Source: a bacterium (GTDB taxonomy: Bacteria > Actinomycetota > Acidimicrobiia > Spongiisociales > Spongiisociaceae). Taken from it: a stretch of DNA of 64,000 bases. The stretch lies in NCBI GenBank assembly GCA_028820935.1, contig JAPPHZ010000009.1, positions 62,001 to 126,000 of the forward strand, given 5' to 3'. The position numbers and the translations under genes were made by a program. Of the stretch, positions 4,575 through 49,579 are shown one piece after another; the first letter of the stretch is position 1, and each line of letters starts with the position of its first letter. Under the pieces are notes generated by a model. That model was not told the origin of the DNA. It searched no databases and worked only from the letters and a program-made list of their open reading frames with translations.

Positions 4575-4944
4575 CTGTGCCTCCTGTCCGGCTCTCCTAA
4601 CGACAACGACCACAAATGTGCTTGTCAGGGAAAGACCACCGCCACGGCTGCAGTCACGACGGTCACGAAGGGGACTGGCTCCGTCCCCGGGCACCGGTGA
4701 ATTGCCTGGCACGCTGTGGCCTGTCTACGAAACGACCAGGCGTGCCCTGGCGGCATACCACACCGCCGCTCCACAGACAGGCGGCTAGACTGCTCGCCAG
4801 ACCGGACGGAAAGGCGCGACCAGCCTAGGCGGGCCAATTCCCCTCACGGTCCACAAGATGACCACTTGCTCTCCGAGTTCCAGTGACCACTCTGGAGCCG
4901 GGAGGTATCCCCCAACCTCGATGGTGGGGAGAAACGGAGCAGCC
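4575..4944. other. Intergenic stretch upstream of panB
   Basis: No gene is supported. It holds a perfect 6-bp hairpin GGGGAC (4670-4675)/GTCCCC (4685-4690), a near-perfect pair GCCTGGCACGC (4706-4716)/GCGTGCCCTGGC (4742-4753), and a short copy of the dispersed palindromic repeat (4718-4784). Short ORFs here lack motifs. The panB promoter could not be placed with confidence. Confidence 0.5.
4718..4784. repeat. Short, internally deleted copy of the dispersed palindromic repeat
   Basis: Terminal inverted repeats GCCTGTCT (4721-4728) and AGACAGGC (4777-4784) are perfect. The right end (GGCATACCAC, then CTCCACAG) closely matches the right ends of the copies at 20715-20874 and 49417-49579. The roughly 90-bp middle section of those copies is missing. 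It is best read as a deletion derivative of the same family. Confidence 0.6.
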
Positions 4945-5850
4945 ATGTCGAACGCTAAGTCGGATCATCCGCCAGCCGCCATCCGCAAGAAGGTGAACGC
5001 GCCTGCAGTGCGGGCCCGGAAGGGCGGGAAGCCGCTGACGATGTTGACCGCCTACGACTTCCCCGGCGGCAAGGTGGCGGATCAGGCCGGGGTCGACATC
5101 ATCCTGGTGGGCGACTCGGTGGCCAACGTGGTTCTCGGATACGAGACCACCAACGAGGTGACGCTCGACGACATGATCCACCACACGGCCGCGGTAGCGC
5201 GAGCCCGTCCCGGTGCCCTGCTGGTGGCGGACATGCCGTGGATGACCTTCCATGTCAGCCCTGAGGAGACCCTGCGCAACGCCGCCCGCCTCGTCCGGGA
5301 GGGCGGGGCCGAGGCCGTCAAGCTCGAAGGCGGCACGACCCGGGTCGAGATGATCCGCAAGTTGGTGTCGGCCGAGATCCCGGTAATGGGACACATCGGG
5401 CTGACCCCCCAATCGGTCCACGCCGCCGGCGGGTACCGTATCCAGGGGAGAAGGTTGGAGGACGCCAGGCGGCTGATAGAGGACGCCCTGGCCCTTGAGG
5501 AGGCGGGTGTGTTCGCCGTGGTCTTGGAGGGTGTCCCGGCCATTCTGGCCCAGGCCATCACCCGACGGGTGAGCGTCCCCACCATCGGCATAGGCGCCGG
5601 GCCGGACACCGACGGACAGGTGTTGGTCATGCATGACATGCTCGGCCTCAACTTCGGCCACTACCCCAAGTTCGTCCGGCGCTACGCAGAGCTGTCCAGC
5701 GAGGCCGTGGCAGCAATAGATCGCTGGATCAGGGACGTTCGCCATGGTTCGTTCCCGAGCGAGGAGGAGTCCTACCACATGATCGACGCCGCCGCCTTGG
5801 AGCTGATCGAGGAACCCGCCGGAGCCGACCGGGCCATCGGGCACCGATAA
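4945..5850 (+). CDS. panB: 3-methyl-2-oxobutanoate hydroxymethyltransferase PanB
   Basis: Ketopantoate hydroxymethyltransferase, which transfers a hydroxymethyl group from 5,10-methylene-THF to 2-oxoisovalerate in pantothenate synthesis. The TIM-barrel motifs are clear: LTAYDFPGGKVAD, ILVGDSVANVVLGYETT (Mg ligand Asp), VADMPWMTF, AVKLEGG (Lys and Glu), and PVMGHIGLTPQS. The late TIGIGAGPDTDGQVLVMHDMLG is the family hallmark. The frame is open further upstream, but the ATG at 4945 has a good GGAG (4936-4939) at 5-nt spacing and gives 301 residues, so it is preferred to the ATG at 4858. It is a single gene, with no panC or panD beside it. Confidence 0.95.
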   Translation: MSNAKSDHPPAAIRKKVNAPAVRARKGGKPLTMLTAYDFPGGKVADQAGVDIILVGDSVANVVLGYETTNEVTLDDMIHHTAAVARARPGALLVADMPWMTFHVSPEETLRNAARLVREGGAEAVKLEGGTTRVEMIRKLVSAEIPVMGHIGLTPQSVHAAGGYRIQGRRLEDARRLIEDALALEEAGVFAVVLEGVPAILAQAITRRVSVPTIGIGAGPDTDGQVLVMHDMLGLNFGHYPKFVRRYAELSSEAVAAIDRWIRDVRHGSFPSEEESYHMIDAAALELIEEPAGADRAIGHR

Positions 5851-20713: not shown

Positions 20714-20714
20714 A

Positions 20715-20874
20715 TGGTCTCCCTGCGAAATAACTTGCTGCGGCCTGCTAGCCAGCGACGCCCCTCGCTGCGTTCCGCCTCCTCAACGTACCCTACGGGT
20801 ACGCCTTCGTCAGCGGGCCTTGCGACGAACGCCGCTGCCGGCGCATACCACAGCGCCATTCCACAGGGCGACCA
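20715..20874. repeat. Dispersed palindromic repeat with terminal inverted repeats, copy 1
   Basis: A 160-bp element filling the gap between the two dioxygenase genes. The ends TGGTCTCCCTG (20715-20725) and CAGGGCGACCA (20864-20874) are inverted repeats with one mismatch. Inside is a perfect 7-bp hairpin CGTACCC-TAC-GGGTACG and an outer GCGTTC/GAACGC pair, so the whole element can fold into one long hairpin. It is about 80% identical to 49418-49578. The right terminal repeat supplies the AGGG (20865-20868) that serves as the ribosome binding site of the next gene. Confidence 0.75.
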
Positions 20875-20877
20875 TTG

Positions 20878-21789
20878 ATGGGCATCCTGCGTCTCTCCCA
20901 CGTGGTGGTCCGGGTCCCGGATATCGAACTGGCTACGGCCTACTACTCGGAGGTGGTCGGCCTGATCGAGACGGCCAGGGAACCCGAGCGGGTCTACATG
21001 AAGTGCTGGGACGAGCACCAGCACCACAGCGTGATCCTCGAGTACGCGCCCACCTACGGCTTGGAGAGGTTCGGGTTCAAGGTGCAGCATGAGTCCGATC
21101 TGGATGACCTGGCATCCCGCATCGAAGCGGCCGGGATCGCCACCAAGCGGTTCGAACCCGGCGAACTGGGCATCGGGTCCGGCGCGACGGTGCAGTTCGT
21201 GGCGCCCTCCGGCCACACCACCGAACTGGTGTGGGGCATGGCGCAGGTCGGGAACCTCCTCCCGCTGACCAACCCGCCGCCCGAACCGCAGGGCCTGGTG
21301 GGAATCCACCCGCCCCGTCTCGACCACATCTTCCTGATGTGCGAGGACGTGGACGAGACCACCGCCTTCTACACGGATGTGCTCGACTTCCGCCTGACCG
21401 AGCAGATCCTGGCCGATGACGGGCACCAGCTGGTCACCTTCCTGGAACGCACCCACACCCCCCATGACATCGCCTTCATCACCGGACCGAACGGAGCCTT
21501 CCATCACATGGCCTTCTGGCTGGACGACTGGAACGAGGTCCGCAAGGCGGCCGACATCTGCTCCTACCACGGCATTGCCATCGACGCCGGCCCCACCCGC
21601 CACGGCGCCACCCGCGGGCACGGTCTGTACTTCTTCGATCCCGCCGGCAACCGCAACGAGGTCTACACCGGGGGCTACTGGGCCGACCCCGACCGGGAAC
21701 CGGTCACTTGGACTGAGGCGGAGATCGGGCGGGCCGTGTTCTACTACGAAGGGGTAGTCGACCACCGCTTCATGACGGTGCACTCGTGA
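20878..21789 (+). CDS. Type I extradiol ring-cleavage dioxygenase, copy 2
   Basis: A 303-residue paralogue of copy 1, aligned end to end (both begin MGILRLSHV and share LxFRxTEQxL and FHHMAFWLDDW/LHHFAFWLDDW). The expected Fe(II) ligands are intact: H150 (LDHIFL), H209/H210 (FHHMAFW) and E261 (NEVYTGGY). Either the two cleave different catechols or they form mixed oligomers; sequence alone does not say. The ATG at 20878 is preferred over the one at 20875 because AGGG in the upstream repeat is then 9 nt away. Its TGA overlaps the phosphatase GTG start. Confidence 0.9.
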   Translation: MGILRLSHVVVRVPDIELATAYYSEVVGLIETAREPERVYMKCWDEHQHHSVILEYAPTYGLERFGFKVQHESDLDDLASRIEAAGIATKRFEPGELGIGSGATVQFVAPSGHTTELVWGMAQVGNLLPLTNPPPEPQGLVGIHPPRLDHIFLMCEDVDETTAFYTDVLDFRLTEQILADDGHQLVTFLERTHTPHDIAFITGPNGAFHHMAFWLDDWNEVRKAADICSYHGIAIDAGPTRHGATRGHGLYFFDPAGNRNEVYTGGYWADPDREPVTWTEAEIGRAVFYYEGVVDHRFMTVHS

Positions 21790-49416: not shown

Positions 49417-49579
49417 GTGGTCTGTCTGCAAAACGGCTTGCCGCGCCCTGCTTGCCATCGACGCCCCTCGCGGCGTTCCGCCTCCTCGACGTACCGCTGC
49501 GGGTACGCCTTCGTCGGCGCGCCTTGCGAGGAACGCCGCTGCCGGCGCATGCCACGGCGCAGTTCCGCAGACAGACCAC
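49417..49579. repeat. Dispersed palindromic repeat with terminal inverted repeats, copy 2
   Basis: GTGGTCTGTCTGC (49417-49429) and its exact complement (49567-49579) bound this 163-bp element between the importer's binding-protein and permease genes. Inside are a perfect 10-bp pair GCGGCGTTCC (49470-49479)/GGAACGCCGC (49530-49539) and a central hairpin CGTACC (49490-49495)/GGTACG (49502-49507). The central region (GACGCCCCTCG, then CCGCCTCCTC) is shared with copy 1 in the same orientation. It shows no coding potential. Confidence 0.8.

Follow-up and report, generated by a model that had tools for sequence, protein, structure and literature searches.

A dispersed family of probable IS630-type miniature elements with a covarying hairpin core in Spongiisociaceae

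The window analysed here, a stretch of 64,000 nucleotides from a bacterium of the Spongiisociaceae (contig JAPPHZ010000009.1), carries a repeat with terminal inverted repeats (TIRs) in two long copies (copies 1 and 2) and one short copy (copy 3). The locus raises the question of what this repeat is, what moves it, and why its interior is a conserved hairpin. Sequence comparisons support the view that it belongs to a dispersed, non-coding family of miniature inverted-repeat transposable elements (MITEs) of 160–165 bp with the TIR GTGGTCTGTCTG, and the family very likely consists of non-autonomous elements of the IS630/Tc1-mariner type. "IS630-type" denotes here the mode of working, namely TA duplication and CTAG preference; a transposase with matching ends was found only in the genome of a sister family.

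Searches of the genome yielded at least 46 matches with copy 1 as the query and at least 49 with the family consensus. The end AGTGGTCTGTCTG was found with at most one mismatch at 103 genome sites versus 5 for the reversed control, and the exact TIR at 60 sites versus 0 for the control. The family was present in nine out of ten genomes of the genus, in several species and with up to 99% identity to the consensus, and zero copies were found by consensus and TIR searches in G007, a congener whose genome is smaller (2.3 Mb). Contigs C17, C18, C33, C46 and others of the studied genome (G000) start or stop within element copies; the copy number is therefore underestimated, and multicopy insertion sequences (ISs) may be missing. 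The original prediction had allowed for a local duplication with no further copies and no empty sites; this source of the similarity was clearly ruled out by the copy number and by the unoccupied sites described below, and its comparison to a MITE agreed with the TIRs, the about 50 or more copies, the TA duplication and the empty sites in congeners. Tandem dimers (L020, L021, L025, L038, L051, L074, L293) shared the junction CAGACAGAC-GCGA[AT]A-GTGGTCTGTCTG (GCGAGA in one), with GCGA in place of the terminal CAC. A near-identical Acidimicrobiia element with CTAG flanks was observed at L229:330-500 on a contig labelled Terriglobia (Acidobacteriota), which represents either symbiont-to-symbiont transfer or a misbinned contig.

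The joined flanks of 13 insertions matched unoccupied orthologous loci in congeners. At one such locus (L014), the filled site read GCCGTCTA / GTGGTC..161..GACCAC / TAGGGTG, and the empty site in three congeners read GCCGTCTA / GGGTG. Among the elements listed, 43 distinct ones were flanked by CTAG/CTAG, and other flanks included CTAG/CTAA and TTAG/CTAA. The empty sites show that the element goes into CTAG and that TA is duplicated, and the flanks fit an element ending in G...C; because CTAG/CTAA and TTAG/CTAA flanks occur, the duplicated sequence would be TA and not CTAG, and a 4-bp CTAG duplication is disfavoured. The target rule was derived from younger copies outside the window, all three window copies being old with their own TA duplication decayed. 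CTAG occurred 34 times in the window versus approximately 195 expected from base composition. The original prediction had also likened the repeat to REPINs, dispersed palindromes that are moved by a RAYT (Y1 HUH) transposase and that share with it the palindromic form, the intergenic location and the many copies. REPINs have no target duplication, whereas TA is duplicated here, and the TA duplication, the CTAG target and the exact empty sites are features of DDE transposition; the likeness is contradicted on these target features, and such an origin is extremely improbable.

Within the window, the two long copies and one short copy that had been claimed were recovered with refined coordinates. 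Copy 1 (162 bp, 20714–20875, core motif on the minus strand) has a decayed left TIR (20714–20731, plus strand), and its right TIR (20858–20875, minus strand) lies directly 5' of the ATG at 20878 with which the next gene starts. Its conserved hairpin core (20755–20834, minus strand) was matched by covariance model R1 with an E value of 8.6e-17 in the genome search (G000:C9:82755-82834:-). Copy 2 (163 bp, 49417–49579, core motif on the minus strand) has its core at 49458–49538 (minus strand; covariance-model match L003:1541-1621:-, E 4.2e-18) and its TIRs at 49417–49437 (plus strand) and 49559–49579 (minus strand). Copy 3 (70 bp, 4716–4785, no strand assigned) is a short form with the interior deleted and without the core, of the same class as L069, L070, L071 and L073. 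The long copies were 84% identical in pairwise comparison, with inverted-repeat arms of 19 nt and 84% complementarity in copy 1 and of 21 nt and 86% complementarity in copy 2. As predicted for genes of the same operon, both lie between codirectional related genes: copy 1 between two extradiol-dioxygenase/glyoxalase genes, and copy 2 between an oligopeptide-binding protein gene and that of its permease. The copy 1 site was unoccupied in G007, G008, G009 and G012, and the copy 2 site in G009 and G012 (L342, L341), with old, imperfect junctions in each case. Copy 2 was also observed at the identical site in G003, a genome of another genus (L288), with approximately 90% identity, and was missing from closer congeners, which suggests that this locus was moved between genera by transfer.

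What moves the family was approached through its ends. In G126, a more distant genome that carries a sister MITE of another actinobacterial family (L200), the MITE end GTGCACCGTCCCATAGATAA agreed at 18 of 20 bases with the end GTGGACCGTCCCATATATAA of an IS630 element. This IS630 has the ends TAGTGGACCGTCCCATATATAA, and its 365-aa transposase contains DDE_3 and HTH domains. In another distant genome with sister elements (G300), a second IS630 element with the TIR TAGTGTACTGTCCC is located at CTAG, and an IS630 fragment in the related genus g3 terminates in ...CACAGGACACTAG. An IS630 element as the probable mobiliser of the sister family is well supported by these matching ends, and for the genus's own family we infer a mobiliser of the same kind. 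The earlier statement that no matching transposase is seen stood for this genus, although the sister family has one. DDE_3 and DDE_Tnp_1 loci were scanned for the TIR, and the DDE_Tnp_1 loci of the genus lacked the element ends. Candidates for an autonomous partner were rejected: each of the 20 TIR matches without an apparent partner proved to be a MITE copy, a remnant or a contig end, and a 590-bp TIR pair at argF (C17) was a solo end adjoining a copy. At L061:1165-1190, argF, recognised by eye from its translation as the ornithine carbamoyltransferase gene, has its stop codon overlapped by a solo end TAGTGGTCTGTCTG.

Two observations speak against an IS630-type mover. None of the genus's ten genomes yielded a DDE_3 (IS630) protein, a negative result limited by fragmented assemblies that tend to lose multicopy ISs. 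Moreover, IS5-like elements with the ends CTAGGGCGTGTTCACG (L121, L124, L129, L134; in G009 and genus g3) were also inserted in CTAG, and two unrelated element types of the same bacterial family thus have a rare target in common. An IS5-type transposase using CTAG could therefore be the mover, as the lack of DDE_3 proteins in the genus would also allow. However, the CTAGGGCGTGTTCACG ends have only TAG.G and little more in common with TAGTGGTCTGTCTG, the IS630 ends of the phylum (TAGTGGACCGTCCC, TAGTGTACTGTCCC) are closer (about 10 of 14 positions by eye), and 18 of 20 bases agree between the sister MITE and its IS630. We consider an IS5-type mover improbable, and an IS630-type transposase remains the preferred candidate.

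The interior of the element is a hairpin of approximately 78 nt with covarying stems and conserved internal loops (GCAAGG/AACGCA and GAC.RAGG/GAGG.AG), whose residues are nearly invariant. Folding and covariation, named in the original prediction as a check, both pointed to a structured element: copies 1 and 2 folded more stably than their shuffles (z −3.8 and −3.3, respectively), and 11 of 14 base pairs were changed on both sides among 58 aligned cores. There were 95 double-change cells versus 31 ± 5 in shuffled alignments (0 of 500), and slid controls reached no more than 24. This alignment was fitted to the structure and thus biased towards covariation; one made without the structure gave 24 double-change cells versus 8 ± 2. 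A covariance model built on 22 cores was run on 396 sampled genomes of the phylum and detected the core in 29, many of which have at least 12 copies. Geobacteraceae loci outside its training set were matched with E values of about 1e-6 to 1e-7, though not in a blind test, since an exact 28-base pattern had led to them. No core was found in viral contigs or in plasmids. BLAST with the core across the phylum, together with a pattern-based scan of contigs from GTDB, placed this interior inside elements with very different ends, including GTGGTCTGTCTG, GTGCCCCGTTCCATAAATAC, GTGCTCCGTCCAGGAACCTT, GTGCACCTTCGCGTAAGT, GTGCCTACTTGTATAAGTCC, GGGCCTGTTTGGTGG and GGAGCCCGTCTAAATACTCC. The core was not found in the IS630 elements, and the MITE interior was missing from the G126 IS630.

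Such a distribution may reflect a passive passenger, inherited from one old 162-bp ancestor whose ends diverged together with the helpers and whose palindrome was tidied by template-switch repair. The constant length and architecture point to common descent, and quasipalindrome correction is known to act on hairpins. On the other hand, template-switch repair would erase mismatched loops, and the internal loops are nearly invariant; the core was also found again in Geobacteraceae with different flanks. We regard the passenger explanation as rather doubtful.

Loss of the core was evident in the short copies of 66–70 and 92–95 bp, which lacked all or most of it and broke at common positions in short direct repeats (ATGGC, GCAGCG). 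The congener G010 (L358) carried, where copy 1 lies in the window, an orthologous remnant of approximately 70 bp with both ends present and the core gone. Deletion of the core after insertion was therefore directly seen, in support of the earlier description of the short copy as a deletion form. The right end of the G010 remnant retained GGGAGACCATTGATG / GGGAGACCATTG ahead of the ATG, and the right end of copy 1 may have been co-opted as a putative ribosome-binding site of the next gene.

The 110 copies that were compared with flanking genes, using a simple codon-usage gene caller, included 32 and 33 by strand in codirectional pairs, 13 in convergent and 12 in divergent pairs. There was no strand preference relative to the genes, unlike what a terminator or a strand-specific leader would show. 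These counts bear on the explanation that the MITE carries its core as a structured RNA, which would affect mRNA processing or stability in operon transcripts and be kept since insertions become tolerable or useful. The covarying stems and the copies between genes of operons agree with an RNA role, as do a related Geobacteraceae element inside a cobalamin-riboswitch-like leader and the effect of ERIC on mRNA stability (reviewed in PMC2229807). However, the copies showed no orientation bias although the internal loops differ by strand, and no Rfam covariance model matched the element up to an E value of 10, which rules out a known RNA family. An RNA role is, in our view, unlikely. In Trichlorobacter thiogenes (L241:1435-1585 (−) and 4852-5068 (−); L221 near 1058), a Geobacter-type core element splits a cobalamin riboswitch, as indicated by a weak split Rfam match, and an intact riboswitch copy lies approximately 3.4 kb from the interrupted one.

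Our tentative preference is that the core, as a DNA hairpin or cruciform, aids mobility in cis, given that its pairing is kept, its orientation to genes is neutral, the element length is constant, full-size IS630 elements do not have it, and it decays after insertion. In the proposed mechanism, a transposase supplied in trans by a helper, presumed for this genus, would recognise the ends GTGGTCTGTCTG... and insert the element of approximately 162 bp in the TA of a rare CTAG (occasionally TTAA), duplicating TA. The scarcity of CTAG in the window and the TAG stop codon that it often contains would steer insertions between genes. The core, acting as a DNA hairpin or cruciform on mobility in cis, might draw together both ends of the element, whose length is close to the stiffness length of DNA, or alternatively recruit a conserved factor; once inserted, it would be dispensable and could be lost via slippage between short direct repeats. 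It is somewhat doubtful, though conceivable, that the core is an independently selected module of MITEs with many IS630-type ends across the phylum (with another form in Geobacteraceae), a cis hairpin used by several transposases or by a conserved host factor and a mobility device that full-size ISs do not carry.

Several further points weigh against the preferred explanation. Template-switch repair acting on imperfect palindromes could, without any selection, account for part of the covariation. One breakpoint was common to the short copies, and their amplification as short forms is possible, which would make the core non-required. The core had a mean identity of 0.68 and the ends one of 0.55 (the best of four comparisons), a difference that is partly ascertainment, the elements of other families having been gathered via the core and the representatives picked by hand. 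All 19 representative TA-flanked elements with the core measured 159–165 bp, a narrow range that is likewise partly built in, the representatives being partly chosen with a 155–170 bp filter; in the unfiltered element list, lengths still cluster at 162 bp for elements that have kept both TA flanks. The placement of insertions at stop codons was seen by eye and is uncounted.

The closest described kinds are RUP (with its partner IS630-Spn1), ERIC and Correia elements (PMC2229807). RUP of Streptococcus pneumoniae is alike in its size of ~100–160 bp, TIRs, TA targets, IS630-like ends, about 100 copies and intergenic location (PMC2229807); it differs in sequence and length, as judged by description, and reportedly has no further signature of structure or function (PMC2229807), whereas a covarying core across MITEs with other ends was observed here. 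The ERIC/IRU elements of enterobacteria share a long imperfect hairpin, terminal TA, intergenic location and spread over a bacterial family, and differ in host group and size (127 bp); the Correia/NEMIS elements of Neisseria share TIRs in a mini-element, terminal TA and an internal motif, and differ in host group; both were compared by description, not by sequence. The "class 4" multicopy sequences of Geobacter metallireducens (PMC2700814) possibly contain the same core, and are not presented as a mobile-element core in the text and legend of that paper. A literature search, including the exact motif, returned no description of the core or of this MITE family in the library covered.

The usual view of MITEs is that of two transposase-recognised ends with arbitrary filler, whereas the interior here is structured, constant in length and common to families with diverged ends. 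The recurrence of a covarying core in similar-sized elements with different ends is unexpected for ordinary mini-transposons. The covariance model is now available for finding such elements in uncultured actinobacteria, and the set of filled and empty sites is a resource for studying insertion between operon genes. The structured interior makes its role in the mobility of bacterial MITEs directly testable.
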